Source of the DNA: Gimesia alba
GTDB taxonomy: Bacteria; Planctomycetota; Planctomycetia; Planctomycetales; Planctomycetaceae
Assembly (NCBI RefSeq): GCF_007744675.1
Contig: NZ_CP036269.1
Location: 1,441,501 to 1,505,500, forward strand
Reading direction: 5' to 3'
DNA: 64,000 nucleotides
Position numbers and translations under genes: made by a program. Position 1 is the stretch's first letter. Every line of letters starts with the position of its first letter. Below the pieces are notes generated by a model, which did no database searches, was not told the DNA's origin, and was given only the letters and a program-made list of their open reading frames with translations. Below, piece after piece: positions 34,224 to 50,437 of the stretch.

Positions 34224-37200
34224 ATGTCATATCTTGCTCGTTTCGTTATAGTCTCTTGTGGACTACCTTTGCTGTTGTTTTTCTGCGTAGGACGTACGTC
34301 TGAGAATGTTTACGCACAACAACAGCCAGGTGATCGGACCAGTGAGAAGCAGGATGAACGGAAAGCAGATTTTGGAGCCAGGCTCCTGAATGCTTCCAGT
34401 CAGCCCAAACCTGAAGCAAAGTCGTCAAAGACTGATTCAAGTTCAGAGACCTCCAACTCGGTTTCCGAGGACTCACCAAATACACCAGGCCAGCAGGGAG
34501 TCTATTTTAAAGGGGCTGATGGCCAATACATTCCTCTCCCAAATCTCAACCTGGATCAAATTCTCGAGTATCTGAAACAGAAGCAGGCTGCTCAGGTAGA
34601 ACAGTCGCCCGAGTACGCGGTTTCTTCCGTTTCACTCACGGGTACCATTAAAGATGATCGCGCCATTCTTGATGCTCGCATTGTTGTGTTGATCAATGAA
34701 GATCAGAAATGGATTCGTGTCCCTTTAAAATTGAATGAATCGATCTTCCTGAAAACTGGATATGCTGGCGCAGGTGAATCCAGTCCAGGTGGTTTTAACC
34801 GAACGGATGGTTATCTATGGTGGTTTCGTGGAAAAGGGACGCATGAGCTGAATCTGACGTTAAGCATATCGCTCAAACAACAGTTACCTTCACGGCGTCT
34901 GCAATTAGTGCTGCCGCAAACCGCCGTCAGTAATTTACAATTGACAGTTCCATTGTCTCAAATCAGTCTGGAGGTTCCCAGCGGAGTCGCGGTTTCGAAA
35001 AAGGCCGTTTCCGAAGAACAGAGTCAGGTAGAAATGTTCGGGTTGGGTGAACAGCTTGATCTTTCATGGCAACCCATTCCTGATGAGAAGAAAGTCGAAA
35101 CTGTATTACAGGCCGAGACTCTGATCACAGCTGATTTCACTTCAGACTCGGTTCTACTGAATGCGAACCAGTCTATCAAAGCCTTGACGGGCAGTTTTCA
35201 GTCGGTCCAGGTTAAGTTGCCAGAATCGTTTCGGCTATTGGATGTGAAGTGTGAAGGTTATAAGAGTCACCAGGTGACAAAAGGAAATCTGGTTGACGTC
35301 TCGCTGATTGAACCCACGGTCGGCCCCATCGAATTGCAGTGGACCCTGGAGACGGATTTTCCAGAACAGAGCGGCCACTTTCTGATTGATGGCTTTGAAG
35401 TGAGTCGGGCTAAACGGCAAACAGGTTTGATTGATGTTCAGACATTGGATGGTTATCGCATCTTTCGTACTGAAGGGCAGAATCGGTCTGTCTATCAGAT
35501 CAAGGCCAACCAGAAAGACCTGGATAGCTCATATCGCTTTCTGAAACAGCCATTTCAACTGCCGCTAAATATTGAACGCGTCAAACCCTACTTCTCTGCC
35601 AAGCCTTTCTACCTGGTTCAAATGTTTGGAAACCGGGCAGAACTGGAAGCACGTGTGAAAATTAACGTATTTCAAGGTGCGCTCGATCAAGTTTCGTTCA
35701 ATTGGCCTCATCGGAAAGAAGAAGGCTGGGAACTGGAATTGATGCAGGAACCATCTTTGACGGAAGCGATTAAAGTTGATCAGTCTCAGCCGGACAGAAT
35801 TAACATTAATCTGCTAAAACGCTCCAAGGGAGCATTTGAAATTTCCTTCCGTGCCCGGCGTCCTGTGATTGCAGATCAGGAACCCTTCAAATTTTCGCTT
35901 CCCGAAATCAAAGCCCCCAGTCTGTCTGCCACGTCACTGGTACTTGCCAATGATACCAATGTCGTTACCGATTTGACCTCCGCACCAAAAACGCAGGTCC
36001 TGTCAACTCCTTTGGTACAACTAGATCAGTTCGCGCTGCCGGCGGAAATTCAGATTCTGCGAAAGAACATGTTTCAAATTCAACCGGGAGTCAATGAGTT
36101 TTCGGCTGTTGTTTCGATTCATAGCCAGGAAATTACTGCCGCAAGTACTGCCCTGATAGAAATCGATGGTTCAGAGACCCGTGTTGAGCAGGAAATTCAA
36201 TATCAGATTGAATATGAACCACTATCTGAAGTTCGTTTGCTGGTGCCTCTGTCTTTGAAAAATCGTGTTAATTTTTATCTCGATGATGAGCAGAACCCGC
36301 TTGTACCAACCTGGACCTCGGACGAAACAGATCCGATCCAGAATGCTCGACTTTCTCTACGCAGCAAAAAACTGGGATCAGTAAAAATTACAGCCGTCTA
36401 TTTATTGACGCAAACTTCTCAATCCGAATTAGATATCCCCCTGATCCGTTCTGACGATGTGGCTTTTTCAGAAAGCCAGTTTGAACTTTTAATGATGAAC
36501 GACGAAGATGCACAGTCGTTCGAAGTTGAAAGTACGGATGCGGCCTGGCAGCAGCAGTTGGCCATGAATAATAATGCGTTCTGGCGTGCTGTGGATCCCG
36601 AAGCAGACATTAGTCTCAAATTCAAAAAAAGCGAATCGGGCTCTCTCTTGGCTTATTCAATCCGTCAGGCATGGATCGATTGCAGCATCGATTTGGCTGG
36701 TTCCTATCAGGCACGCGCTCAGTATCAGTTTCCAGTGTCACCACGAACTCTTTCATTCAGAATGCCAGAAAACTCAGGGATCAAGATCGATGAAATCTGG
36801 TGGAACGATCAACCGGTCACAGCTAATCTGACACAGGGGAGCGCTCAGGACTACCAACTCAGTTTGCCAATCGCCAAACGGAAAGAAGCACAAACACCAG
36901 CGAATATTCTGACGATTGATTATAGTTCCACCAGACACCAGCGTGACTCCCAATTCGGCCCATTGACGGTTGGTGCTGCCGAATTTTCAGATAATCTCTG
37001 GATTGAAAAGACGATGTGGAAAATCCGACTGCCCAATCACGAACATCTCTTTACAATTCCTCGAGGGTACACCCCTCAATTTCGCTGGGAACATCAGGGG
37101 GTCTTCTGGTCACGGCTGTTTTCAGGCCAGGATGAAATTCCGATCGACATGAATAAAACACCACCCCAACGAACAGATTTTATGGGAGTGAACGACTATC

Positions 37201-37652
37201 AATTCTATCGGATCGGTCCGGCAGCTTCGCTACAGTTTCATGCGCTCTCTCGTTCAATGATTGTGTTCATTGGTGCCGGGACTGCCTTACTGCTGGGATT
37301 TATTTTAATGAGTATCTCAGCGCTCAGAAGCGCGCTGGTGCTGTTAGTTATGATGACGGCCGTTTCTACAGTTGCACTATGGTATGCTGCTCCGGTGGAA
37401 GTGCTTTTGCAGCCTGCGGTCTTCGGATTACTTCTGGCTGTCGTCGCGGCATTGATAAATGGAACTTCACGAAAACGACGTGAATCAAAACTGTTGACTC
37501 TCTCTGCACCGAGTGACTTTATTCCTCCGCCTTCTTATTCTGAACGTATTCGACCATCGGAAGTGGATCCTGAAGATATTACGGCTGTCAGACCTGGTTC
37601 TGAAGTCGTCGATAAACCCGTCTCATCATCAGAAGCCGGGGCCAGCCGATGA
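34224..37652 (+). CDS. Giant exported membrane protein, unit 1
   Basis: A 1142-residue protein without a recognised family. Residues 1-32 are a signal peptide ending VYAQ. A Ser/Gln/Glu-rich linker (about 35-95) leads to EYAVSSVSLTGTIKDDRAILDARIVV-like sequence near 130, the start of a long, all-beta extracytoplasmic region to about 1010. Three C-terminal helices (about 1012-1085: the MIVFIGAGTALLLGF, ALVLLVMMTAVSTVALWY and AVFGLLLAVVAALI stretches) anchor it, and a short Pro/Ser-rich tail is cytoplasmic. The same plan and the YxxxxxxxGTIxDD motif recur in the next gene, so these are paralogous units. The stop overlaps the next start (ATGA), implying coupled translation. The function is unknown; a role in the cell envelope is inferred from topology. 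Confidence 0.75.
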   Translation: MSYLARFVIVSCGLPLLLFFCVGRTSENVYAQQQPGDRTSEKQDERKADFGARLLNASSQPKPEAKSSKTDSSSETSNSVSEDSPNTPGQQGVYFKGADGQYIPLPNLNLDQILEYLKQKQAAQVEQSPEYAVSSVSLTGTIKDDRAILDARIVVLINEDQKWIRVPLKLNESIFLKTGYAGAGESSPGGFNRTDGYLWWFRGKGTHELNLTLSISLKQQLPSRRLQLVLPQTAVSNLQLTVPLSQISLEVPSGVAVSKKAVSEEQSQVEMFGLGEQLDLSWQPIPDEKKVETVLQAETLITADFTSDSVLLNANQSIKALTGSFQSVQVKLPESFRLLDVKCEGYKSHQVTKGNLVDVSLIEPTVGPIELQWTLETDFPEQSGHFLIDGFEVSRAKRQTGLIDVQTLDGYRIFRTEGQNRSVYQIKANQKDLDSSYRFLKQPFQLPLNIERVKPYFSAKPFYLVQMFGNRAELEARVKINVFQGALDQVSFNWPHRKEEGWELELMQEPSLTEAIKVDQSQPDRININLLKRSKGAFEISFRARRPVIADQEPFKFSLPEIKAPSLSATSLVLANDTNVVTDLTSAPKTQVLSTPLVQLDQFALPAEIQILRKNMFQIQPGVNEFSAVVSIHSQEITAASTALIEIDGSETRVEQEIQYQIEYEPLSEVRLLVPLSLKNRVNFYLDDEQNPLVPTWTSDETDPIQNARLSLRSKKLGSVKITAVYLLTQTSQSELDIPLIRSDDVAFSESQFELLMMNDEDAQSFEVESTDAAWQQQLAMNNNAFWRAVDPEADISLKFKKSESGSLLAYSIRQAWIDCSIDLAGSYQARAQYQFPVSPRTLSFRMPENSGIKIDEIWWNDQPVTANLTQGSAQDYQLSLPIAKRKEAQTPANILTIDYSSTRHQRDSQFGPLTVGAAEFSDNLWIEKTMWKIRLPNHEHLFTIPRGYTPQFRWEHQGVFWSRLFSGQDEIPIDMNKTPPQRTDFMGVNDYQFYRIGPAASLQFHALSRSMIVFIGAGTALLLGFILMSISALRSALVLLVMMTAVSTVALWYAAPVEVLLQPAVFGLLLAVVAALINGTSRKRRESKLLTLSAPSDFIPPPSYSERIRPSEVDPEDITAVRPGSEVVDKPVSSSEAGASR

Positions 37653-40600
37653 GGGGGTATCAAAAACTCGAATGGCAGCAAAGTCCTGCTCTCAGAATAA
37701 TTTGTTTGATGATCGTAGGGATATCCTGTCTATTGAATTCAGGGAGTCTCTCCGCTGCTGAACAGAATACGTTGAATCTGAGTCCCTCATTGCGAATTAA
37801 AGAAATGACTGTTTCTGGTCGTGATACGTCTCAGTGGCCTGAGGGAAACTGGTATCCCGTCCCTTTAAAGAAATATCAGTCACTTAAAAAAGCGGCTGTA
37901 TTAAAAAAAAACACGCCTCCAAATTCCTGGATTCAGGAAGCAACTTATACTGCTACGCTCAAAGGTGATCACCTCATAGATGGACGTCTGGAGTATGTTC
38001 TACATTGTTCCCGGAATGAGCCAGGGTTTATCAACCTGTCAAAACTGAATTTAGCGATTCATGAATTAAAGTGGGGTCAGCAGGACGCCGTCTGGGGACT
38101 GGCCCCGGATCAACAAACCTTGTTACTCGTTGATCATTTTGACGATACTCTGTCGGGACAGTGGAGTTTGAAAGGCAGACAACTGCCGCAGCGCACGGAG
38201 TTTACTTTTCAATTACCCGAGACAGTAGTCTCACGTGTTCAACTGAAAGTCCCCCGAGGCATGGTTCTGACAACGTCTGTCGGTTATGTTTCAGGTCCAT
38301 TGAAATCCGGACTACCCAATTATGATTTATGGCAGATCGAACTCGGCGGACAGTCCGAATTTCAAGCCGTCATTTACCAGAGCGAGACACAGAAACAGGC
38401 GCCTACACAAATTCTGTATCATCAATTTGCTCAGGTTGGCGTACGGGAAGATGGTTTAAGGCTTCGGGAAGATTTCCAGATTGAAGTTTTGAATCAACCT
38501 GTTCAAAAACTGGAATTTGAAGCACCTGTGGAATATGAAATCTATTCTGTGACTCTAGGCAATGATCTGGCTTTACCATTTGAAGTGAAACAACAGAAAG
38601 GTCAGAACCGGATTACAGTAGATCTCATCGATCCTCTGGTAGGGATCAGTCGTCCCTTATCGATTCGTGCATTGGCATCACCTTCTTTAGAGGGTGATGT
38701 AACCATTCCCCGGCTAAAATTGAATCAGGCCCACTTTTTAGGGGGGACAGTGCATCTTGATATTTCCTCTCCCTTGCAGACACATGCGATCACTTTATCA
38801 GATCTACGCCAGACCGGGGTGCTTATTCAAGAGGAACAGGGAGAATCATACGACTTCAAGCAATATACTCCCGATGCACGTTTGCAGTATCGCCTGGCTT
38901 TACCGGACCTGAATCTTTCTGCCAGGGTTCATAGTATGGTTCAGGTCGAAGATAAAGTCTGGAATTTGAAATCACGCATCCATTGGACTTCCGCTGCAGG
39001 GACGACCTATCGCCTGGAGGCAATGATTCCTGCTGGTTGGGAGATCACTCAAGTCAAAAGTCTGGCCACTGAGAAACATTCCGGTGATCTGGTCTGGGAT
39101 GTAGAACGGAGTGGCCGACAACAAAAGTTACGTATCCGACTTCCGATTTCCGTTTCGCCTGATACTCCCTATTCACTGGAAATTCAGGCCAGACGACTGG
39201 TTCCCGTTTTAAAACGGTCGATCGATTTGTTTGGAGTAAGGCCATTAGGATGTGACAATATTGATCGGGTTTTAGAATTAGCCGCGAGCCCTGAACTGGC
39301 TTCGCTGTTTGAGCCAGACAAAGAAGTAGAAGAAATCGCAGCGAATGAGCTTCCTAAAAACTGGACATTTCCAGTGACCGATTCAAACATGTCGCGTTTG
39401 TTTCATCTTTCCCCTTATTCCGGTTCAAGATGGGGAGCTCTGAGACTTTCGAAAATGGAACAGTCACTTCAGGTTGTCGGCAGTACGTTTCTTGCAATCA
39501 ATGATGACGTAATCCAGGAAAATTATATTTTAAACAGTGTGCCTGTACGAGGGGGGATTCAACGTGTGCTTGTTTATCTCTCTGAGACAGGTGAACCTGT
39601 GGAATGGACGCTTCCTTCCGGAAGTAGCTTGCAGTCAAAACTCAATACTCAAAAGCTGCCGGTTTCTGAGCATCAGAAGTGGCAACTCCCCGATTCAGGT
39701 GAGCTTTGGGAGTTGAATTTTTCGACACCTGTTTTCAGTGAAATAGAAATTCGTGGAGAACGCCGACGACCTTTCCAGAAAAATATGAGAGCATCTTTGG
39801 TGTTTGCACCCCAGGCTAAGCCATTTCGCGGTGTAGTCCGAGTATTGAATTCAAACGAGTTGAATTTACGCATCCAGACTGAAGGTCTTTTGGCAAATTC
39901 TGATTCAAAAAACAGTACAAGATTAAAACGCAGTCAGCGAAACTATGAGTGGGATTATGAACGTCCTTCGGGGGTATTAACAATCTCGCGCGCGTCTGAT
40001 TTTTCAGACACTGGTTTAGAGCAAGGGACAGCAACGATTGTTGTTGATACTAAGTTCGGTCACGGAAATGGAGAACCTGATGTCCATCGGGCAACGATTG
40101 ACCTCGATTTATCAAAAACATTTGATGATGAAGTTTTGTTTCATTTCCCGTCTGATGTGAAGCTAATTTCAACAGCCGTTAATCAGCAGCGGGTGACACC
40201 GATTGAAACAGAAAGTCAATTCCTGGTTCCTCTCTTTGATCAGTTAGACTCATATCGAATTACGATTCAATATCAGACTTCGTCAGTTCCCGATGGGCTG
40301 AGCGTGACACGCCAGATCCCCTTTCCTCAAATCAATCAACGGGTCCTGGAAACAGACTGGAATTTTACACTTCCGGAAGGCATAAGTTTGCTGAGCGGTC
40401 CCGAAGATATGGTCCTGCAACAGGCGATCCCTGATGGAACATTGACTCGCAGATTCTTTGGAGTACTCGGGAAAGACCAGGGACCGGCTGAAAGTGTTGA
40501 GTCCCGCTGGAATGCGATCGTGTTGTTTCCGGTGAAGTATGGCATCCTGGAAACTTCTAACACGGGTCAGTCAAAGATTATCTCTTGGATTGTATTACTG

Positions 40601-43600
40601 TCGACTATCATCGTCGGGATGTTATTGCGAATATTCAGTGTTGGAATTCGAGAGAAGCTCTGCATTATGCTGGCACTGATCTCATTAGCTCTAGCCTGGA
40701 TCTTTCCACTGCCGTTAGCACAAATCGCAGGCAGTTGTTTCACGGGAATCTTAATCGTGATGTTAATTCCCCGCCGATTCCTCCGGCAGGAAACAAAAAT
40801 ACAAATTGAGGATCAAAGTACAAAAGCATATCAGCAACCGGTCTCTTCACTTTACTCAGCAGCCCGCATCATCATGATCGGACTCCTGGGGATTTCAGCT
40901 GCTGCCAGCTATGCGCAAAATTCACCAGCACCGGTTTTGTCGACTCCTGCGAATCAGTCTAAGGAACTCAAAACGGAAATGGTTCTTCTGCCTGACTCAT
41001 CAGGTTCAACAACGGAATCGTTTGCCTATCTCACACCGGACTTACTTCAGGAACTGGAAGCGCTTACAGAATTTACGCAGCAACCGGAATATCTGATTTC
41101 TTCGGCTCACTACGACGGTACGATTCATGATGACCAGTTACTGACTGTGAAGGCGACCTTTCAAGTAAAGGTTCCTATTGAAAAAGAAAATGCAACAGTT
41201 CAACTGCCCATCAGCGGTGGAAATCTGAGTGGCCCAGATTCCTGTCGAGTCGACGGGAATATTGTTCCGGTTTTACTGGGGGCAGATGGGCAAGGCATCC
41301 AGGTGAATGTGAAGAATCAACAAATGACAACCCAATCGCCGTTAGGCCCGGATGTACCTGTTGAAGCACAAAAACCAGTTTTACCATATTCTTATCAGGA
41401 ACATCTGATTGAGTTGATCTTGCATCCGGCAGTGAAGTTCAGTGCTACCAGCGGGCAATTTGAATTAGGGATTCCTCCTGTCACGATAAATCAGTTTACA
41501 TTTCAATGCAATGATCCGATTTATCTGGTCGAACTCACTGAAACGACCGGTGTTTCCCAATACCAGTTGGCCGGAAAAAAACAGTTTTCTTCTTTCCTGA
41601 AAGAAAATACTCTACTTAAAGTGAAATGGCTCACCAGCCAGAATTCAGAAACAACCCCCTTAAATCTTGGGGCGACAGTTTTAACGAATGCTGAAGTATC
41701 TCCTTCACTGATTCGGATGGAAGTCCAGGTGAAATATACAGTGCTGAGTGGGAAAGTCGATTATCTGTCTTGGAAACTTCCTGTAGGTGCAGTCTTAAGG
41801 GATGTGAAATCTGCAGGAATCACAGTCGTTCCTGCTTTACGCCCGGCTGAGAATGAAGAGAGTGAAGAGTTACTGTTGGAGTTGTCAGAATCAAAAACGG
41901 GTAAATTCGAAATTAATGCCACCTTTGATTTACCGGCCAACGATCCATTGACGGAGGTCAAGGTTTTACCAGTCGATTTCGGTTCTGGGAATCAGGATTC
42001 CCAAGTCACAACGATTAAAGTCGTGTCGCATCAGGTGGGGGTGCGTGCTGGTCCGGAGTTTGAGATCGAACAGGCAGGGGCACTTCCAGAGGGCGTTCTG
42101 TCGGTCTCGTCTAAGACATCTGGTAAACAAATCGATGACAGTATTGTGAAGTCGTCCGCATTGCTGTTTCAAGTTAATCAACCTGCTCCTATTTCACTGG
42201 TCCTCAGACCAAAAAATCCCAAACGATCAGCACGAATAAATCAGACAGTGGTGGTGAATCGCAAGAATATCGATTGGACTTTTGCGGCAGAATTACGAAT
42301 CAGTCAGGCACCGGCGTTTCAACATTCACTTGTTGTACCGGAAGGTCTTCGAATTGAATCACTGTCAGTGAAAGAAGAAGATGTGGAGAGGCTGGCTCAC
42401 TGGCATCGCATTGGAAATCAAATCACGCTGTTTTTGAAAAATAAAACCTCGGGATTGCAGGACCTCACACTTAAGGGCTGGCTACCGATCCGAAAACTGG
42501 GAAGCCTGAAAATACCGGGTATTCAGTTGCAGGGAGTAGAAGTTGAAGAGTCTCTGTTGAGTTTATATAAAAAGCCTCAACTCGATGTCGAATTAACCTC
42601 ACCTCATTTTCGCCGAATTCAAGAGAATTCAACACAACCCGCGATCGTCGATCATTTTTCTTTAGTGGGGCGTTTCCAGGAACGCGATTCTGTCGGTCAG
42701 CCTATTTCACTGATGGTCAAACTGCAAAAATCCATGATCGCCGTTGATACGCTAACCATCATTGATTCAGTGGAAGATCAACAAATTGAGGTGACACAAT
42801 CTTTACGTTTCACCTTACCTGCTGCTGATATGAAAAAATTAAATTTGCTGATACCGATTGAGTTTGGGGATGAGTTTTCGATTGATGGAATGCCATTTGA
42901 AATTCAGGATAAAATGCCCGATGGATTACAACGGGTCGAGCTACAGTCTACGGCTTCCGCTTCGAAGGAAAAAACGGTCACGATCAGGGCAACAATCATG
43001 AAGCCAGCCGACGAGTTGGTGGTGATGCCTGTGACTCTGGAAAATTCAAACATCCAAAATAACTATCTTCTGCTTTCTAAAACTCAGGATTTTCAATTAA
43101 CCGACAAAAAAGCAAGACAAACACTGTTAGCAGACAATGTTCCTGCCTGGGTACAGGCCCGCTGTGATGCCTCCTCTGATATCGATTGCAGTCGTGTCTA
43201 TACGGCTTCGCAGTTGCCGTGGAAATTAAGCATGGCTTCGCACAGTGCTGGCGTAATGAATGCAGCGTTTATTCCTTATCTTGAAACAGAAATTATTTTG
43301 AGCGATCAGGGAACCATTCATGGTGTAACCCAGATCAAATTATTTAATCAAAGCAACCGCGTGTTAACTCTGGATTGGCCTGATAAAACTAAACTGATGG
43401 CATTGCTGATTAATGGTGAAAATGACAGTTCTCTCAAGCCGGAAAATAGTACATTGGCAATTCCTCTGAATGGAAGCGGACAAATTGATGAAATTACTTT
43501 GTTCTGGGAATCTTTTCAAATCGAACATCAGTACTTTCTGGAGAAAGCCTGGTTGCAAATACCGCAGCCAACAAATTTCTCGTTTGATAAAAATTTGATT

Positions 43601-44323
43601 AAAGTCATCGCGTCAGATAGCCAGCGAACTTTTCTTTCAGATTACGTAACCCCGTTTACCTACTTTGCTGATAAGCTGGACGAACAACTCAAAATTGCTG
43701 AACTTGAGCTTGAATTGGGGGAGGAGAACCGTCTGTCTCGATCCACGTGGGATGCTGTTGCAAATGAATTTACTAAACTGGAGTTGATCCTGGCAGAACC
43801 TGTTGAGAATGGCCAGGGAACCAGTGAAGAGCTGAATCGATTCGATGATTTAAAAAAACGCGTGTTTGTTTTAAAACAATATGTCAATCAGGCTGAAGAA
43901 CCAGATCAGAAAACACTTTCTTTTGTGCATCAGTTTCAACAGAAATTAGGACCAGTGCCCCTGCAGAAAGTGCGTTATTATTCCAACTCAGGAGATTCAA
44001 AACCTGATTCTGATGTTTTGCTGGCATGGATTATTCCCAATTTTTATCTGGACGTGGTACTGGCTGGTTTCTGCCTGCTCATCCTGCTTCCGATACTGGG
44101 GCGATGTGTTCAATCTCGGTCCGCTGATTGGCTGGATACTCAGCCAGCGATTGGATTGATTACTTTAGGAATCCTCTGGATTTTGTTTTTGTCACCTCAA
44201 TATCTGGGGCTGGCATTTATTGCACTTGCCGTTTTGATGGTGTTCAAAAACAGGAAATCAGTTCCTGCAAAATCAGATCTGTCGCTGGCAAACCATTCCG
44301 GTGCTCACAGTGTCGTTGAGTGA
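37649..44323 (+). CDS. Giant exported membrane protein, two fused units
   Basis: A 2224-residue protein. A signal-like helix lies at about 12-32 (IICLMIVGISCLLNSGSLSAAE). The first beta-rich unit runs to about 970 and is followed by three helices (about 975-1050). After a short basic and polar stretch, a segment near residues 1072-1091, ARIIMIGLLGISAAASYAQ, has the full form of a signal peptide although it is internal. A second unit then starts with LTEFTQQPEYLISSAHYDGTIHDD (about 1136-1160), matching the equivalent region of the previous protein, and ends with three helices (about 2125-2205). The most economical reading is a fusion of two neighbouring genes, the inner signal peptide having become a membrane helix. 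No enzyme motif was found. It is convergent with operon B. Confidence 0.75.
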   Translation: MRGYQKLEWQQSPALRIICLMIVGISCLLNSGSLSAAEQNTLNLSPSLRIKEMTVSGRDTSQWPEGNWYPVPLKKYQSLKKAAVLKKNTPPNSWIQEATYTATLKGDHLIDGRLEYVLHCSRNEPGFINLSKLNLAIHELKWGQQDAVWGLAPDQQTLLLVDHFDDTLSGQWSLKGRQLPQRTEFTFQLPETVVSRVQLKVPRGMVLTTSVGYVSGPLKSGLPNYDLWQIELGGQSEFQAVIYQSETQKQAPTQILYHQFAQVGVREDGLRLREDFQIEVLNQPVQKLEFEAPVEYEIYSVTLGNDLALPFEVKQQKGQNRITVDLIDPLVGISRPLSIRALASPSLEGDVTIPRLKLNQAHFLGGTVHLDISSPLQTHAITLSDLRQTGVLIQEEQGESYDFKQYTPDARLQYRLALPDLNLSARVHSMVQVEDKVWNLKSRIHWTSAAGTTYRLEAMIPAGWEITQVKSLATEKHSGDLVWDVERSGRQQKLRIRLPISVSPDTPYSLEIQARRLVPVLKRSIDLFGVRPLGCDNIDRVLELAASPELASLFEPDKEVEEIAANELPKNWTFPVTDSNMSRLFHLSPYSGSRWGALRLSKMEQSLQVVGSTFLAINDDVIQENYILNSVPVRGGIQRVLVYLSETGEPVEWTLPSGSSLQSKLNTQKLPVSEHQKWQLPDSGELWELNFSTPVFSEIEIRGERRRPFQKNMRASLVFAPQAKPFRGVVRVLNSNELNLRIQTEGLLANSDSKNSTRLKRSQRNYEWDYERPSGVLTISRASDFSDTGLEQGTATIVVDTKFGHGNGEPDVHRATIDLDLSKTFDDEVLFHFPSDVKLISTAVNQQRVTPIETESQFLVPLFDQLDSYRITIQYQTSSVPDGLSVTRQIPFPQINQRVLETDWNFTLPEGISLLSGPEDMVLQQAIPDGTLTRRFFGVLGKDQGPAESVESRWNAIVLFPVKYGILETSNTGQSKIISWIVLLSTIIVGMLLRIFSVGIREKLCIMLALISLALAWIFPLPLAQIAGSCFTGILIVMLIPRRFLRQETKIQIEDQSTKAYQQPVSSLYSAARIIMIGLLGISAAASYAQNSPAPVLSTPANQSKELKTEMVLLPDSSGSTTESFAYLTPDLLQELEALTEFTQQPEYLISSAHYDGTIHDDQLLTVKATFQVKVPIEKENATVQLPISGGNLSGPDSCRVDGNIVPVLLGADGQGIQVNVKNQQMTTQSPLGPDVPVEAQKPVLPYSYQEHLIELILHPAVKFSATSGQFELGIPPVTINQFTFQCNDPIYLVELTETTGVSQYQLAGKKQFSSFLKENTLLKVKWLTSQNSETTPLNLGATVLTNAEVSPSLIRMEVQVKYTVLSGKVDYLSWKLPVGAVLRDVKSAGITVVPALRPAENEESEELLLELSESKTGKFEINATFDLPANDPLTEVKVLPVDFGSGNQDSQVTTIKVVSHQVGVRAGPEFEIEQAGALPEGVLSVSSKTSGKQIDDSIVKSSALLFQVNQPAPISLVLRPKNPKRSARINQTVVVNRKNIDWTFAAELRISQAPAFQHSLVVPEGLRIESLSVKEEDVERLAHWHRIGNQITLFLKNKTSGLQDLTLKGWLPIRKLGSLKIPGIQLQGVEVEESLLSLYKKPQLDVELTSPHFRRIQENSTQPAIVDHFSLVGRFQERDSVGQPISLMVKLQKSMIAVDTLTIIDSVEDQQIEVTQSLRFTLPAADMKKLNLLIPIEFGDEFSIDGMPFEIQDKMPDGLQRVELQSTASASKEKTVTIRATIMKPADELVVMPVTLENSNIQNNYLLLSKTQDFQLTDKKARQTLLADNVPAWVQARCDASSDIDCSRVYTASQLPWKLSMASHSAGVMNAAFIPYLETEIILSDQGTIHGVTQIKLFNQSNRVLTLDWPDKTKLMALLINGENDSSLKPENSTLAIPLNGSGQIDEITLFWESFQIEHQYFLEKAWLQIPQPTNFSFDKNLIKVIASDSQRTFLSDYVTPFTYFADKLDEQLKIAELELELGEENRLSRSTWDAVANEFTKLELILAEPVENGQGTSEELNRFDDLKKRVFVLKQYVNQAEEPDQKTLSFVHQFQQKLGPVPLQKVRYYSNSGDSKPDSDVLLAWIIPNFYLDVVLAGFCLLILLPILGRCVQSRSADWLDTQPAIGLITLGILWILFLSPQYLGLAFIALAVLMVFKNRKSVPAKSDLSLANHSGAHSVVE

Positions 44324-44381: not shown

Positions 44382-46376
44382 CTAAATTCGATCTAGACTG
44401 TCCGCCCAACGCCCTATTTCTTCTAACTGCGGCTGCTTCAGATATTGCCCGGCTTGTCTATCGTCCTTAAGAAGCTGGAACACGGTTGGGTAATTCATTT
44501 TTCGAATCGCCTCGATTCGGGGCTGCAATAACTGATTCAGTGGGTTATTGGCATTCAGAACAAAGTACAGGCTGAGCGGATAATCAGGGTCTGTCTCTGG
44601 TGGCCTGTCTTGCAGGGAAGCATCGGAAACGGCGACACCGCGAAACAAGTCTCGATATTTAAACGCCAGTTGAAATACGAACTCTGCACCGTTCGCATGG
44701 CTGACAAGAAAAATACGTTTGGCATCAATTGCATATCTTGTTTGCATTGATTCGACTACTTCTTTGACAAATTCTGCTTCATCCCGATTCCAGCGAATGA
44801 CATCTTGTGCGGCAGGTCCTACAAGAATAATGCCACGTTGTTCGCAGATACTCTTCCATTCCTTGAATACTGTGGACTCCATTGTGTTCCCCGGAGGATG
44901 GATCCAGACCATCAATCCATATTTATAACTGGGATCGTAATTTTCTGGAACGTATGCCCAGAAGCTCTGCTCATGACCGGGAAGTTGATCTTTAAAGTGT
45001 CCGACTTTGATCTTGTCCTGTTCGTTTTCTTCAGCAGTTCGGGATGGTCGCGCCTGGCTTGGTAAAGAGGATTCTACTATGTTTGGTGTTGCCTGTAATT
45101 TGACATTGACGGTTAACGGTTTCTGATCTCGGGAAACCAGCAGGGTGGCAGTTTCGCCGGGGCGCAGGTGGTTTACCATTAATGCTAGCGCTTCCGCAGA
45201 TGCCACTTTTTGTTTATTGAACTCCAATATTCGGTCTTTGGGTTTTAAGCCTGCGTTAGCAGCCGCTGATTTGGAAAAGACAAAACGCACACCCACTCCC
45301 GGCTTTGTTTCTGTTTTTGATTCACGTTGTGGTAGGACCCCGAGAAAACCCGACTCAAATGGAACCAGTTTTTCTACCAGCGTGGTTTTAAACGTCAACG
45401 GCTCCTTAGCACCCTCTCTGGTTACGGTCAGGCTGACTGCTTCACCAGCGTACTTGCTCATTAGAACCTGTTTGACCTGTGAGTGCATGTTGACCGGTTT
45501 ACCATCCAGTCTGGTTAGAGTATCTCCTGTCTTGACCCCTGCAACTTGAGCCGGGCTTCCATAGCGTACCCGATCTAGTTTCATGTTGCTCGACAGGTCG
45601 CCTTTTCCAGTCATTGTGATGCCTAATAATCCCGGATGAAGATCTTTGCCGGTATTCAGGCGGGGAATGATTTTCAATACATCATACATGGGAATCGCAA
45701 AACCAATTCCTGAGTCATACCACTCCACGCCAGCAGTTTCTCCCGTGGCACCCGGCGAGAGTGGGACCAGAATCCCCATCAAGCGGCCGTTAATATCTAC
45801 CAAAGGACCGCCATAATTGATGGGGGAAATCTTGGCGTCTGTTTGAATGGCTTTTCCCCAGATTCTCTCCAGGGCACTAACAATGCCGACAGAAATACTG
45901 GGCTGATCCAGATCGAATGTTCGTCCCAGTGCAATGGACCACATCCCTACCTGAAGTTCATTTTCCGGGACGGCTAAAGGCACCGGCAGGTTTTGTGCCT
46001 CGATTTTTAACAGGGTCAACATCTTCAAATGGTCGGTGGCAACGACCTGTGCCGGAAAACGACGCCCATCGGGTAATGTCACCAGGATTGAAGATGGTTT
46101 TCCAATGAAATTGAATGCGCTGGAAATGATCAGCCCATCGCGACTGACAATCACGCCCGATGTTGGTCCGGTGCCGGTTAATATTTTTCCGACTCGTTCC
46201 TGACCACCCACCGTTTCTATTCTGACAATGGATGGGTTTACAAAGGCAGCCGCCTGTTTGAAGGCGCGTTCTTCCAGTGATTCCAGATCAGAGGCTGGTG
46301 GCTGAGCCTGTGTAACAGAAATGCCAGTCAGGCACAACGCAATAATAAGAATGTAGATGTTTCGAATGTATGTCAT
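44382..46376 (-). CDS. HtrA-like pseudoprotease with two PDZ and an esterase-fold domain
   Basis: A 664-residue exported protein (signal peptide about 1-24, ending TQAQ). The trypsin-like domain (about 35-235) keeps the fold landmarks but has lost the triad: F88 replaces His (LIISSAFNF), M119 replaces Asp (DHLKMLTLLKI) and Y188 replaces Ser (SPINYGGPL). Two PDZ domains follow (about 245-330 and 345-435). The C-terminal part (about 465-664) is an alpha/beta-hydrolase of the PHB-depolymerase/carboxylesterase type (FWAYVPENYDPSYKYGLMVW), but its nucleophile elbow reads SHANG (559-563) with Ala where Ser should be. It is the last gene of operon B, 20 bp after the next HtrA relative. It is probably a binding or scaffold protein; an unexpected catalytic mechanism cannot be excluded. 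Confidence 0.82.
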   Translation of the reverse strand: MTYIRNIYILIIALCLTGISVTQAQPPASDLESLEERAFKQAAAFVNPSIVRIETVGGQERVGKILTGTGPTSGVIVSRDGLIISSAFNFIGKPSSILVTLPDGRRFPAQVVATDHLKMLTLLKIEAQNLPVPLAVPENELQVGMWSIALGRTFDLDQPSISVGIVSALERIWGKAIQTDAKISPINYGGPLVDINGRLMGILVPLSPGATGETAGVEWYDSGIGFAIPMYDVLKIIPRLNTGKDLHPGLLGITMTGKGDLSSNMKLDRVRYGSPAQVAGVKTGDTLTRLDGKPVNMHSQVKQVLMSKYAGEAVSLTVTREGAKEPLTFKTTLVEKLVPFESGFLGVLPQRESKTETKPGVGVRFVFSKSAAANAGLKPKDRILEFNKQKVASAEALALMVNHLRPGETATLLVSRDQKPLTVNVKLQATPNIVESSLPSQARPSRTAEENEQDKIKVGHFKDQLPGHEQSFWAYVPENYDPSYKYGLMVWIHPPGNTMESTVFKEWKSICEQRGIILVGPAAQDVIRWNRDEAEFVKEVVESMQTRYAIDAKRIFLVSHANGAEFVFQLAFKYRDLFRGVAVSDASLQDRPPETDPDYPLSLYFVLNANNPLNQLLQPRIEAIRKMNYPTVFQLLKDDRQAGQYLKQPQLEEIGRWADSLDRI

Positions 46377-46396
46377 GATCGTCAGGCTATGAAAGG

Positions 46397-47440
46397 TTAT
46401 TTCTTTTCGGGAGGGACCTGGAATTCCACGGACACCAGTTGATTGTTCCGGCGTACTACCAGACGCAGCAAGTCGCCTGTCTCAAGTTTTCCCAGTTCCG
46501 TTTTGAGTGTCTTGCAGGATTTAATCAGTTCATCGTTTACAAATACCACCAGGTCATTCGGTTGTAGACCAGCTTTGGCAACTAAGGAATCAGGCAGAAC
46601 GCTATCGATATATGCGGGAGTTCGATACAGAACGTCCGGCACCATGATCAGGCCAAAATCAACGGGGCGATAACGTTCTGGAGTGGTTTCCGGCTCTTTT
46701 TTCTCTTCACTGGAATCAAACTTGCCGGTAATAATCTGTTCAATGCTTTTGCTGAGTACGTCAATCGGCAGGGAATAGTTGACCCAGGTATTGGTTTTTG
46801 CGTTGCGGACCTGTTTTCCGATCATTCCCAGGAGTTTGCCATCATACGTTAAAATGGCTCCCCCGGCGGCACCCGGGTTGTTGGTAATCGCATCGACAAC
46901 ATACACGTCTCCCGAGTAAGAAAGCTCAAACGCACCCCGTCTCCGGGGTAAATCGGTGCGGGCTTCAATCACGCCGTGCAGAACTGAAACCGGTTCATCC
47001 CCGGTCGCAACACGAAACATATTGCTGAACCCCAAGATGCGAGTACCGGGACCAGCGATGGTTTTTTCACGATAATGGAAACAGGGGAGATTGAGTTCAC
47101 GTTCCGATTTTAATTTGATGATGGCCAGGTCCAGATGTGGCTCGGCTCCCAAGACTTCAGCTTCAAATTTTCGTCCATCGTGAAGTACAACAGATAAACG
47201 ATCTGTATCAAGTACCGGACTCCAGATTGTGGCGATGTGTCCTTCGGGTGAGACGAGAAAGCCTGTACTGTAACCATATAGATTTTTTACGCCACCTGCA
47301 CCAAAGATCTTGACTATGCGGGGCAGGGCATACTTGATCGTTGACTGAGACGAGGCCTGGGAAGTTAAAGGGACCGCCAACACGGAACCAACCAGGCACA
47401 AGTAAACGAGAACGGACTTTACGGTTTTTTGTTTAATCAC
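46397..47440 (-). CDS. HtrA-like pseudoprotease with one PDZ
   Basis: A 347-residue exported protein (signal peptide about 1-29, ending SQAS). The trypsin-like fold covers about 35-240. The Asp is kept (D104, PHLDLAIIKL), but the His position holds S74 or the neighbouring P75 (HIATIWSPV) and the Ser position is A192 (NNPGAAGGAIL instead of NPGNSGGPL). One PDZ domain (about 255-345, with LPDSLVAKAGLQPNDLVVFVND) follows. It lies between the active HtrA relative (29 bp) and the double pseudoenzyme (20 bp), so the three are surely co-transcribed. It may regulate or target the active protease (inference). Confidence 0.82.
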   Translation of the reverse strand: MIKQKTVKSVLVYLCLVGSVLAVPLTSQASSQSTIKYALPRIVKIFGAGGVKNLYGYSTGFLVSPEGHIATIWSPVLDTDRLSVVLHDGRKFEAEVLGAEPHLDLAIIKLKSERELNLPCFHYREKTIAGPGTRILGFSNMFRVATGDEPVSVLHGVIEARTDLPRRRGAFELSYSGDVYVVDAITNNPGAAGGAILTYDGKLLGMIGKQVRNAKTNTWVNYSLPIDVLSKSIEQIITGKFDSSEEKKEPETTPERYRPVDFGLIMVPDVLYRTPAYIDSVLPDSLVAKAGLQPNDLVVFVNDELIKSCKTLKTELGKLETGDLLRLVVRRNNQLVSVEFQVPPEKK

Positions 47441-47469
47441 TGAGGATCAACCTTCATCACAAATCGATG

Positions 47470-49218
47470 CTATTTCTTGGGAGTATCCAATGTTTCTAAC
47501 TTGAGACGTTCAACTTTTAATTTCATCACAGGTCGATTTCCGTAGAGTATATCAAGTTCTCCCGGAAATTTTTGTCCGTTGAGAGTTTGGAACTGTTCGA
47601 AGCGAATTGAGCACACCTCCGAATTTTCGGTGAGATAAAAATCAAACCCTCGTAGAGACAGATCTGCTTTATTAAAGTACCAACGGGAAATCGTTCCGGT
47701 CTGCGTCGCAACCAGTACATCAACCAATTCATTTTTTCCATCCAGGAGTTCGCTGCCCAGGTAATAAAAGTCGGTAAAGCGATCACTCTGTCCAGACAGC
47801 AGTAAACGGAAGTGGTGTAATGCTGCGAGTAATCCACCTGTTCCCGGTGGCTCATCCACGAAGGTTCCCGTCTCCAGCGATTGCAGAAAGATATCGTTGC
47901 CAGCTTCAAATCCCACACCTTTGTCGGCCAGCGTGAGTGTGAATTCACTGCCGTCTTCCTGTTTTCCGGTCAGTGACCAGGTCCCTTTACGGTCCGAAAA
48001 ATTGCTGGTTGTATTTAAAGCTTGCAGTAACCGATCCTGTTGTTGCTGATTAAAGTAGTAATTCGTAAATCCGGTTTTAGGAATGTAAAGGTGCTTGTAC
48101 TGTTCTGGTGGCGCGGGTTCTGGTTTGGCGTGAGGATTTGGCATCTGGGGAGGCTTTTCTTCGCCCGGTCGTGAAGGTTTGACAGGAGGTTTTTTCTTTT
48201 GCCCAGCCTGTTCCTGTAATTCCGCTGCAGTATGCAATGCCTGCAAACGTACATAGATGGTGTGCTTTTTCTCATCCCGTCGATACACGAGTGGCAGAGT
48301 CCAGCCCGCGGGATAAATACCGAGAATGTTTTTAAACTGGTTTACACTCCGGATCGGTCTGCCTGCAAAAGAAACGATTTCATCACCGAGACGCAGTCCT
48401 TTCCGATACGCGTCTGAATCTTCCAGTATTTCGGCGACGTCAATTGTGGAGTCAAGGCTGGTCGTCACAGTTGCACCGAGGGAAGCGTGGTCAACAATTC
48501 GCCCGCTTTTTAAGTGATCCCAGAAGTGTTTAATCTGATTGATGGAGATAGCGTAACCTGCGCCCGAATTGACGCGGCCTCTTTTTTCAAACGAACCACG
48601 ACCATTGATACCGATCAGTTCTCCGCGGTCGTTGAACAGAGGACCTCCCGAATTACCCGGATTAATTGAAGAGTCGACCTGAATACAGTCGGTATATTCG
48701 AGAAACGTTCCTGCAGGATATTGATAACGGTGTACCCCGCTGACGATTCCGTAAGTAATCGTCGGCTGAAAATCGGTGGCTAATAGAAAAGGATTTCCCA
48801 TTGCATAGGCCCAGTCACCCACTTGAACCGTGTCGCTGTTGCCTAGCTTGGCGACGGGAAAATCGGTTCGCCCGAGCAACTTGATCAGTGCCACATCGCC
48901 AGTAGGGTCAATGCTGACAATCACAGCGTCATAAAGTTTGCCATCATTCAGCCCACATTTCATGAAGTTGCCTGCACCCGAAACAACATGGAAGTTGGTC
49001 AACGCATAGCCGTCCTGCGTCACCAGAACGCCTGAGCCACCTCCCGCGCCCTCAGCCCCAAAGATCGCGACGACTGAAGGGGAGACTGCTTTGATGACAT
49101 CGATGCGTTGTTTTTGCGCTGCTAAAACAGCCGGATCAACTGACGAAACTTCTGCAAAGGCAGGTACGATCAGAAGCATGCTGATAATAAGCGTGGCACA
49201 GAATACATTTTTCTGCAT
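47470..49218 (-). CDS. HtrA/DegP-type serine protease with PDZ and extra C-terminal domain
   Basis: A 582-residue exported protein (signal peptide about 1-22, ending AFAE). The triad is complete: H77 (ALTNFHVV), D108 (DPTGDVALIKL) and S190 (NPGNSGGPLFN). One PDZ domain lies at about 240-325. A Pro/Lys-rich linker (about 335-370) leads to a C-terminal domain of about 200 residues (LQSLETGTF...GKNELVDVLVATQTGTISRWYFNKADLSLRGFDFYL) whose strand pattern recalls LolA/LppX-like or outer-membrane lipoprotein-sorting folds; this last point is tentative. It is the only one of the three adjacent HtrA-like proteins likely to cut peptides. It probably acts in periplasmic quality control linked to operon B. 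Confidence 0.87.
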   Translation of the reverse strand: MQKNVFCATLIISMLLIVPAFAEVSSVDPAVLAAQKQRIDVIKAVSPSVVAIFGAEGAGGGSGVLVTQDGYALTNFHVVSGAGNFMKCGLNDGKLYDAVIVSIDPTGDVALIKLLGRTDFPVAKLGNSDTVQVGDWAYAMGNPFLLATDFQPTITYGIVSGVHRYQYPAGTFLEYTDCIQVDSSINPGNSGGPLFNDRGELIGINGRGSFEKRGRVNSGAGYAISINQIKHFWDHLKSGRIVDHASLGATVTTSLDSTIDVAEILEDSDAYRKGLRLGDEIVSFAGRPIRSVNQFKNILGIYPAGWTLPLVYRRDEKKHTIYVRLQALHTAAELQEQAGQKKKPPVKPSRPGEEKPPQMPNPHAKPEPAPPEQYKHLYIPKTGFTNYYFNQQQQDRLLQALNTTSNFSDRKGTWSLTGKQEDGSEFTLTLADKGVGFEAGNDIFLQSLETGTFVDEPPGTGGLLAALHHFRLLLSGQSDRFTDFYYLGSELLDGKNELVDVLVATQTGTISRWYFNKADLSLRGFDFYLTENSEVCSIRFEQFQTLNGQKFPGELDILYGNRPVMKLKVERLKLETLDTPKK

Positions 49219-49270: not shown

Positions 49271-50437
49271 TTACTTAATTAAGCGTGCCTCACAGAGATC
49301 GAGATGATCACAGATCTCCAGGTTGTCACCAAAATCCACTAAGATTTCGAGATCGCGCACGCCGCGAACATCGAGGTCTAATTCGATCGGTGCGTCAGCA
49401 CTCCGCACGTTTCCAGAATAGAGCGTTCGCCCATTACCTTTAATTTCAACATACACAAAGCCGATGCCGGGAACAGAATCATCAATCCCCATGATTGCCC
49501 GAAAGTTTCGGTATTCCTCTTTGATTCGATATTGCAGGAGCGTTTTAGAGTGAATGTAAAGTCCGCGTGCATATTCTTTACCGTCCAGTCGGAGTGGACC
49601 ACCATCACGATGTTTATCTTTGCGGTACTTCCACACGGTGTCAAAGAAGGGCGTGTACTCGATCTTTCGCGGTTCCAGGTCGGAAAGATACCGAACTTTG
49701 CCTTGGCTGAAGTCCAGGTTTGCAATCGATTGAGGAGCAAATTGGGCTCGTGTACCGCTTTGCAGTGTGGCATTGAATTCGGCTCCCGAGTAGCTGATCG
49801 CAGAAGCATTAATCAGCCCGCCGTTGGTCAGACGGATAGAACAGAAGGGGGACGCATCCGATGTTGGTTGTCGAAAATAAATGATGCCGAAGACACGCTT
49901 GCGATTCACGGCAACTTCATCGTCGCCAGTGAAAAACTGAATCTTATCATCGGTAATGGAACCGACGACACCATCAATAAAATCAAGAACATTCTCCTTC
50001 TGTACGACGAGCAGATCTTTGTTGCTCTTGTTGTTCAGGAGTTTATCCCAAGAGGCACTGATATTGGAATTCAATGTTCCAAAGCGGATTGAAGTGACCT
50101 GATTCGTCGGCAGGAGAAGTGTGCCGGTCTGATCTCCACTGACTTTGATCTGCCGTTCGTTGCTCTGCAGCGTTTGAACGGGGAATTTTGATCCATCGGT
50201 TAAGCGAATTGTTAATGGGGTTTCCAGGCTGCGCTGATACCGGTTTTTGGGAAAACGTACATTCAAGGTTTCTGCGAGTGGGTGTTCTTTAGCTGTTTCA
50301 CCTTGTTTGAGGCCGATCACAGCTTTATTCAATGACTGCAGGTTTCCTGAAACGGACGTTCCACTGAGTGAAGTCATTTCGACTTCTGGTGAAACCGCCA
50401 GCAGCATCGTCATTGAAACACAAAACAGGGAATGCAT
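49271..50437 (-). CDS. Exported NPCBM-domain protein
   Basis: A 388-residue protein with a short signal peptide (about 1-18). The middle part is beta-rich and contains repeats of the form RLTDGSKF...RLTNGGLINA, joined to short SIRFG/LDFS strands. The C-terminal 140 residues (GGPLRLDGKEYARGLYIHSKTLLQYRI..., VYVEIKGNGRTLYSG..., DLEILVDFGDNLEICDHLDLCEARL) match the NPCBM/NEW2 carbohydrate-binding fold, known as an accessory domain of glycosidases. No catalytic domain is present. It sits 52 bp before the active HtrA gene in operon B and may bind a cell-surface glycan (inference). Confidence 0.78.
   Translation of the reverse strand: MHSLFCVSMTMLLAVSPEVEMTSLSGTSVSGNLQSLNKAVIGLKQGETAKEHPLAETLNVRFPKNRYQRSLETPLTIRLTDGSKFPVQTLQSNERQIKVSGDQTGTLLLPTNQVTSIRFGTLNSNISASWDKLLNNKSNKDLLVVQKENVLDFIDGVVGSITDDKIQFFTGDDEVAVNRKRVFGIIYFRQPTSDASPFCSIRLTNGGLINASAISYSGAEFNATLQSGTRAQFAPQSIANLDFSQGKVRYLSDLEPRKIEYTPFFDTVWKYRKDKHRDGGPLRLDGKEYARGLYIHSKTLLQYRIKEEYRNFRAIMGIDDSVPGIGFVYVEIKGNGRTLYSGNVRSADAPIELDLDVRGVRDLEILVDFGDNLEICDHLDLCEARLIK

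Follow-up and report, generated by a model that had tools for sequence, protein, structure and literature searches.

Protease assemblies made of live and dead paralogous subunits are known from the ClpP/ClpR rings of cyanobacteria and plastids, which differ from the system reported here in fold, in compartment and in being driven by ATP. The HtrA proteases (DegS, DegP, DegQ and MucD among them) have, as far as characterised, been described as homo-oligomers (PMC11642142, in the part available). There is precedent for a pseudo-HtrA activating a live one: MamO activates MamE-dependent proteolysis with its own triad being dispensable. MamO has His and Asp but Thr in place of Ser, requires a TauE-like domain for the activation and binds metal (available part of PMC4794232). 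A live-plus-dead tandem is also known, as plant Deg7 carries an active and a degenerate protease domain with PDZ in one chain, and the inactive domain is involved in trimerisation (available part of PMC3473262). Here we report on three adjoining HtrA-like genes, P1, P2 and P3, of the planctomycete Gimesia alba. They lie in a window of 64,000 nucleotides (the whole stretch of DNA analysed; bases 1441501-1505500 of the 7.77-Mb single-contig genome). P1 has an intact protease domain, and P2 and P3 have lost the catalytic triad in two different ways.

Compared with these systems, as far as the available parts of the papers describe them, the trio would resemble MamE/MamO in placing an active and a degenerate HtrA in one pathway. 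It differs in having two pseudoproteases with other losses, and P1, P2 and P3 score 60.4, 35.5 and 23.8 bits against the NCBIfam MamO model, whose cut-off is 800 bits. The P1-P2 fusions described below are similar in principle to Deg7, whereas the active and inactive domains in the window are encoded by separate genes, there is a third member (P3), and P1 includes a C-terminal domain. The fold and the PDZ domains are shared with DegS, DegP, DegQ and MucD, and P1 keeps both their triad and their activation cluster; P2 and P3, in contrast, are dead. No paper on the trio was found in a literature search whose coverage of subscription papers was poor. Within the literature searched, the fixed trio, its class-wide and wider spread, the two different dead states, the P1-P2 fusions and the retention of activation residues in a dead subunit are new.

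Catalytic sites and domains of the three paralogues

P1, P2 and P3 are complete open reading frames on the minus strand, separated by 29 (P1-P2) and 20 (P2-P3) bases, and all exceed the Pfam cut-off of Trypsin_2, in agreement with the initial annotation of this DNA, which had described three adjacent HtrA-like genes. The genes, domains and catalytic positions are as follows (aa, amino acids):

47470..49218, minus strand: P1, 582 aa, with a signal-peptide-like start, an intact HtrA protease domain, one PDZ domain, a Pro-rich linker and a C-terminal domain
48988..48990, minus strand: codon of catalytic His77 of P1
48895..48897, minus strand: codon of catalytic Asp108 of P1
48649..48651, minus strand: codon of catalytic Ser190 of P1
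47470..48096, minus strand: C-terminal domain of P1 (residues 375-582), for which a confident model shows a helix and antiparallel strands, with at most a weak likeness to LolA/LolB
46397..47440, minus strand: P2, 347 aa, with a signal-peptide-like start, a dead HtrA protease domain and one PDZ domain
47219..47221, minus strand: Ser74 of P2, at the catalytic His position
47129..47131, minus strand: Asp104 of P2, the sole triad residue kept
46865..46867, minus strand: Ala192 of P2, at the catalytic Ser position
44382..46376, minus strand: P3, 664 aa, with a signal-peptide-like start, a dead HtrA protease domain, two PDZ domains and an alpha/beta-hydrolase C-terminal domain
46110..46115, minus strand: Phe88-Asn89 of P3, at the catalytic His position, register ambiguous by one
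46020..46022, minus strand: Met119 of P3, at the catalytic Asp position
45813..45815, minus strand: Tyr188 of P3, at the catalytic Ser position
44382..45014, minus strand: C-terminal hydrolase domain of P3 (residues 455-664), with Ala561 at the nucleophile position (44694-44696)

Triad residues were located by alignment to DegP, DegQ, DegS or MucD. The alignments bore out the initial annotation for P1, which keeps His77, Asp108 and Ser190, and for P2, in which only the Asp remains (Ser74, Asp104, Ala192). For P3, which had been read as Phe, Met and Tyr, Met119 and Tyr188 stood, as did the loss of the His; the Phe is possibly off by one. Aligned to P1 without gaps, P3 has Phe88 at the His position; with a gap before it, Asn89 takes that place (HMMER alignments to DegQ; helix start in the model), and His is absent in either register. 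P1 thus has the His-Asp-Ser triad of the HtrA/Deg family, and P2 and P3, whose triads are lost, are regarded as HtrA descendants and not filed as HtrA proteases.

Conservation was followed through three sets of loci, which may include one genome twice under different names. L099-L178 are the best 80 of 352 loci found by a pattern requiring Ala or Gly at the P2 nucleophile and are therefore biased at that position. L050-L098 and L191-L230 were chosen independently of the pattern, the latter being 40 further loci that comprise all 25 loci outside the class Planctomycetia seen at an E-value of 1e-50 or better and 15 from within it. Counts were taken from family-wise alignments, since joint alignments misplaced the His column or put Asn89 of P3 at the His, and sequences were deduplicated (P1 from 121 to 108, P2 from 130 to 116, P3 from 104 to 92). 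The P1 triad was His-Asp-Ser in 107/107 readable distinct sequences (His 107 and Asp 107 of 108, with one gap each; Ser 108); among the 40 further loci, L210 and L211 seem to be misaligned around the His of P1. At the His position of the 116 distinct P2 sequences we found Ser in 101, Asn in 11, Thr in two, Gly in one and one gap, and at the Ser position Ala in 92, Gly in 21, Glu and Phe in one each and one gap. A nucleophile Ser was absent from P2 in the 115 readable of these 116 sequences, in 40/40 further loci and in the best 120 database proteins; the last had neither His nor Ser at the triad sites, and one had Thr at the nucleophile. Outside the class, the nucleophile position holds Gln, Tyr, Phe, Pro, Glu or Asp and never Ser. 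The 92 distinct P3 sequences have Tyr at the Ser position in 91 (one gap), Phe at position 88 in 83 and Met at the Asp position in 72; the Tyr is kept in 39/40 further loci, with one Val. Positions 88 and 119 of P3 appear to covary, Trp occurring with a small residue in 6/6 (Phe in 15/111) and Tyr with a polar one in 7/9 (Phe in 18/111), counts that ignore relatedness and are only a hint.

PDZ domains were recovered in all three proteins, as had been proposed: one in P1 (25.7 bits, just below the Pfam cut-off of 27), one in P2 (32.8 bits) and two in P3 (92.2 bits). The sub-cut-off domain of P1 aligns along the PDZ of MucD. None of the proteins reaches the cut-off of 416.2 bits for the NCBIfam Do family serine endopeptidases (TIGR02037), the scores being 226.1 (P1), 84.1 (P2) and 207.6 (P3). 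The models of P1 and P3 match structures of the DegP/DegS/DegQ type, and P2 was placed in HtrA by sequence. An N-terminal hydrophobic stretch resembling a signal peptide was read in each of the three sequences, and a periplasmic location appears probable for all of them. For the C-terminal domain of P1, a profile search gave no solved relative (best E-value 0.19). Weak Pfam matches of this domain were to DUF4292 (8/34 members), DUF6287 (5/34) and LolB (2/34); DUF4292 and LolB belong to one superfamily.

The C-terminal domain of P3 adds to the initial description of this protein. Its 210 residues match LC-Est1C-type esterases (E-value 1.1e-16), and the Ser, Asp and His of this LC-Est1C/PHB depolymerase-type hydrolase are all lost in the genome of the window. 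The 50 rows that Foldseek lists for the whole P1 model, and likewise for the P3 model, are all HtrA proteases, so the hydrolase domain rests on sequence profiles. The Ser-Asp-His set is still legible in six relatives (L066, L069, L070, L121, L124 and L126), suggesting that the hydrolase died later than the protease domain.

In a tree built without the triad columns (18 rows per family), P1, P2 and P3 each formed one clade with 100% bootstrap; a grouping of P2 with P3 was weak (95/68) and on long branches. Median ratios of non-synonymous to synonymous substitution rates (dN/dS) within the genus, taken for each gene from the 22 pairs, out of 120, whose dS was below 1.5, were 0.037 for P1, 0.047 for P2 and 0.057 for P3, and 0.024-0.094 for eight upstream genes. 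All three genes are under purifying selection. The "gradient of decay" seen by the initial annotation was not upheld: each state belongs to an ancient single-clade paralogue, the Tyr of P3 being nearly invariant, and progressive decay of P2 and P3 is strongly contradicted by the single clades, the low dN/dS and the class-wide and wider conservation. By these sequence comparisons, P2 and P3 are fixed ancient paralogue states. The selection for non-catalytic roles that had been suggested is, in turn, well supported by co-inheritance in the class, by occurrence in other classes, and by dN/dS values of P2 and P3 close to that of P1.

Co-inheritance, gene order and P1-P2 fusions

Of 198 genomes of the class, 146 have all three genes, 49 have none and three have part of the set: G048 (P2 only), G211 (P1 and P2) and G217 (P2 and P3). 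Gene by gene, P1 was found in 147, P3 in 147 and P2, at an E-value of at most 1e-50, in 149. In this survey 6-10 candidates were scored per genome, and the listed matches were read across one genome after another. Family f2 is absent from the trio matches listed, and in the 11 f2 genomes searched the 378-aa protein of the block upstream of the trio was matched only weakly and in part. G144, whose trio is absent from the listings, has this 378-aa protein at full length. In G048, the P2-like gene (locus L095) is diverged, with Thr, Gln and Phe at the triad positions, and stands beside the upstream genes; P1 and P3 were not found in a search of its assembly, which is 89% complete. Both degenerate genes, whose absence from close relatives would have refuted the initial annotation's proposal, are present in close relatives of the window genome. 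Among 59 near and far relatives, own genome included, a P2 orthologue of at least 185 bits was found in 48, a weak one in one and none in 10.

Gene order was also largely kept. Across 80 named loci, P1 lies ahead of P2 in 74 of the 78 that could be evaluated for this, and P3 comes after P2 in 60 of the 74 that could be evaluated. Four genomes of the window's family (G021, G022, G027 and G035) have no P3 beside P2 in the stretch examined; in all four it lies elsewhere. In a phylum sample of 246 genomes, the P2 profile reached 1e-50 in 40; 25 of them, belonging to 15 families, are outside the class, where the trio is thus the exception. All three genes are grouped at 24 of the 25 outside-class loci, and the remaining locus ends at a contig edge. 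The genes of the 378-aa and 593-aa proteins precede P1 in most of these loci, and the NPCBM gene was detected in 13/25; in one of them (L207) MoxR and DUF58 sit between the NPCBM gene and P1. P3 outside the class is mostly without the hydrolase domain (L191 has one), which seems to be missing also from six of the 15 class loci.

P1 and P2 form a single open frame in three loci from three different families (L201, L205 and L214; 979, 979 and 1126 aa). Between the matched parts are about 240-300 residues that resemble the C-terminal domain of P1 by eye, with mature P2 next. The hydrophobic leader of P2 is missing in the L201 and L214 fusions, where the best 16-residue hydropathy is 1.1 and 1.0, compared with 1.6-2.7 in five unfused P2 proteins. 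The L205 value is 1.8, but located at the start of mature P2. The fusions are the strongest evidence here for contact between P1 and P2, and suggest that the two pair directly.

Activation residues and a proposed hetero-oligomer

In DegS, Thr167, Arg178 and Gln191 belong to a hydrogen-bond cluster that sets the active site, and Arg178, in the L3 loop, reaches the neighbouring subunit (PMC11642142, in the part available). The corresponding residues and the C-terminal tail of P3 are:

45864..45866, minus strand: Arg171 of P3, equivalent of DegS Arg178 (L3 loop); Arg in 91/91 readable sequences and 40/40 further loci
45843..45845, minus strand: Gln178 of P3, equivalent of DegS Gln191; Gln in 91/91 readable sequences and 40/40 further loci
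44385..44396, minus strand: C-terminal tail of P3, Leu-Asp-Arg-Ile-COOH

P3 keeps the Arg and Gln in 131/131 sequences and has mostly Asn or Ser at the position of Thr167. In a joint alignment with some misplaced rows, P1 showed Thr in 99, Arg in 100 and Gln in 102 of 108 sequences at the three positions, and P2 showed mostly Val at the first, varied residues at the second and Val or Ile at the third. The oxyanion glycine is kept in 115/115 readable P2 sequences and lost in P3. A dead P3 that keeps residues acting on a neighbour would fit an activator, and the kept residues may point to activation of the MamO type. A dead P2 that has lost the activation cluster and keeps the oxyanion glycine would fit a scaffold or a trap.

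The motif L-[DN]-[RQK]-[ILV]-COOH ends 79 of 85 distinct complete P3 proteins of the near set (the window and L050-L178). The last residue in this set is hydrophobic in 84/85 P3, 3/107 P1 and 2/115 P2 proteins. Ten other hydrolase-like proteins of the own genome, for which the end was seen, have the motif in 0/10. PDZ domains of HtrA proteins bind peptide ligands via a carboxylate-binding loop (available part of PMC11642142), and the P3 tail may therefore be a built-in ligand, its LDR[IL] carboxylate docking into a PDZ of the trio.

We consider it somewhat probable that the trio forms a hetero-oligomeric HtrA, one periplasmic machine with P1 as catalytic subunit, P2 as scaffold or trap and P3 as activator. 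In such a machine, P1 would be the only protease, and P2 would be a dead subunit pairing with P1, probably structural or substrate-holding. P3 would be a dead subunit that most likely activates P1 via the Arg and Gln, which would stabilise the neighbour's active site; in much of the class Planctomycetia it would also bear the hydrolase-like domain with a usually free LDR[IL] end, which may dock into a PDZ of the trio. The hetero-oligomer subunits suggested by the initial annotation gain support from the P1-P2 fusions and the activation residues of P3; the complex itself we infer. A broader version is tentative and on the doubtful side: that most Planctomycetia and scattered lineages in other classes of planctomycetes possess a natural hetero-oligomeric HtrA of three obligate paralogues (cutter, scaffold or trap, and activator). 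In it P2 would sometimes be fused to P1, and P3 would provide the L3 Arg to the adjoining subunit and, in many species, be clamped by the PDZ ligand at its own C terminus.

Several observations weigh against the hetero-oligomer. A 2024 review describes every HtrA protein characterised to date as a homo-oligomer (PMC11642142, in the part available). Some genomes carry P2 or P3 apart from the other trio genes, and G048 has only the P2-like gene. The conserved Arg and Gln might contribute to the fold stability of P3 itself rather than act on a neighbour. As to the tail, a hydrophobic end is also present in 2/10 of the other hydrolase-like proteins of the own genome. P3 of the 15 further class loci ends in LDR[IL] in six and in LDRS and LDKT in two, the motif being absent in seven, and outside the class it was found in 1/24 proteins with the end seen (L191). 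The tail is also modelled at a predicted local distance difference test (pLDDT) score of 95 directly after a helix, so packing into the hydrolase fold is possible.

P2 and P3 might instead act alone, as non-catalytic peptide binders, chaperones or anchors, in a pathway common with P1 and with no complex formed; DegP with its Ser replaced, for example, serves as a substrate trap. The kept protease and PDZ domains of P2 and P3, the invariant oxyanion glycine of readable P2 and the sometimes unlinked genes would suit such a role, yet the P1-P2 fusions, the near-perfect co-inheritance with P1 and the inter-subunit activation residues retained by P3 speak against it, and we consider it rather unlikely. 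The same genetics as for the hetero-oligomer with P3 as activator (fusion, co-inheritance, adjacency) would accommodate P2 and/or P3 as built-in inhibitors, which join P1 trimers and damp their activity until a signal removes them, and a P2 neighbour without the activation cluster could leave P1 inactive. An inhibitor, however, has no obvious need for the activating Arg and Gln found in every readable P3, making this function improbable.

It is very improbable that P2 or P3 is catalytic through other residues, such as the P3 Tyr or, in P2, a His one residue further along. Tyr188 is nearly invariant, many P2 proteins have a His directly after the His position (WSHVLD, in many relatives outside Gimesia), one of the 120 database P2 proteins has the Thr mentioned above, and in L205, among the 40 further loci, the His column of P2 does hold a His, the other two columns being Gly and Gln. 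P3, however, has no His column above 85% and no oxyanion glycine, the sole P2 His column above 85% (68) lies six residues before the site, and the P2 nucleophile site is Ala, Gly, Gln, Pro or others. Judged by conservation, an alternative triad, the other finding that would have counted against the initial annotation, was rejected, with no conserved His in P3 and no Ser nucleophile in P2. That P2 and P3 are pseudogenes on their way out, for which the lost triads alone would speak, has a negligible chance against open frames, a median dN/dS near 0.05 and conservation, as one clade each, through most of the class and beyond.

Gene neighbourhood and meaning of the trio

The trio stands at the end of a run of minus-strand genes, in the order MoxR ATPase, DUF58, BatA-like protein, second VWA-like membrane protein, 826-aa, 593-aa and 378-aa proteins, NPCBM-domain protein, P1, P2 and P3, with -35 to 187 bases between neighbours:

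49271..50437, minus strand: NPCBM-domain protein, 388 aa, next gene upstream of P1
50491..62920, minus strand: MoxR ATPase, DUF58, BatA-like, second VWA-like membrane protein and the 826/593/378-aa proteins, upstream

The spacing and the recurring gene order suggest that P1, P2 and P3 are on one transcript, and gene order points to a possible functional tie between the trio and the upstream MoxR-DUF58-BatA genes. Within the genes and in the gaps between them, promoter-like sites were as frequent as expected from shuffled sequence (9 vs a mean of 9.7). Terminator-like sites were somewhat above it (16 vs a mean of 10.8, standard deviation 3.4), 13/16 being on the opposite strand. Two large convergent plus-strand genes adjoin P3 (1142 and 2224 aa; window positions 34224-44323), with no Pfam match at an E-value of 0.01.

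Two further HtrA-like or trypsin-like loci were observed in the same genome. At G000:C1:4691881-4693220 (L010, L019), a 359-aa protein with TAAHV and GDSGGPL neighbours a 378-aa HtrA-like protein; a motif search detected no His motif and no Ser motif in the latter. At G000:C1:7410289-7411899 (L014, L017, L018), an 837-aa frame carries three trypsin-like domains, with GxSGG in the middle one only.

The source names of P2 are 'serine protease Do' or 'S1C family serine protease'; P2 proteins carrying these names are unable to cut by the usual triad. That dead copies are kept side by side with a live protease in many planctomycetes suggests a function for them, perhaps as subunits that partner the live enzyme. 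With cutting and signalling split by evolution into different genes, the trio would offer a natural setting in which to study how a subunit is switched on by the one next to it.

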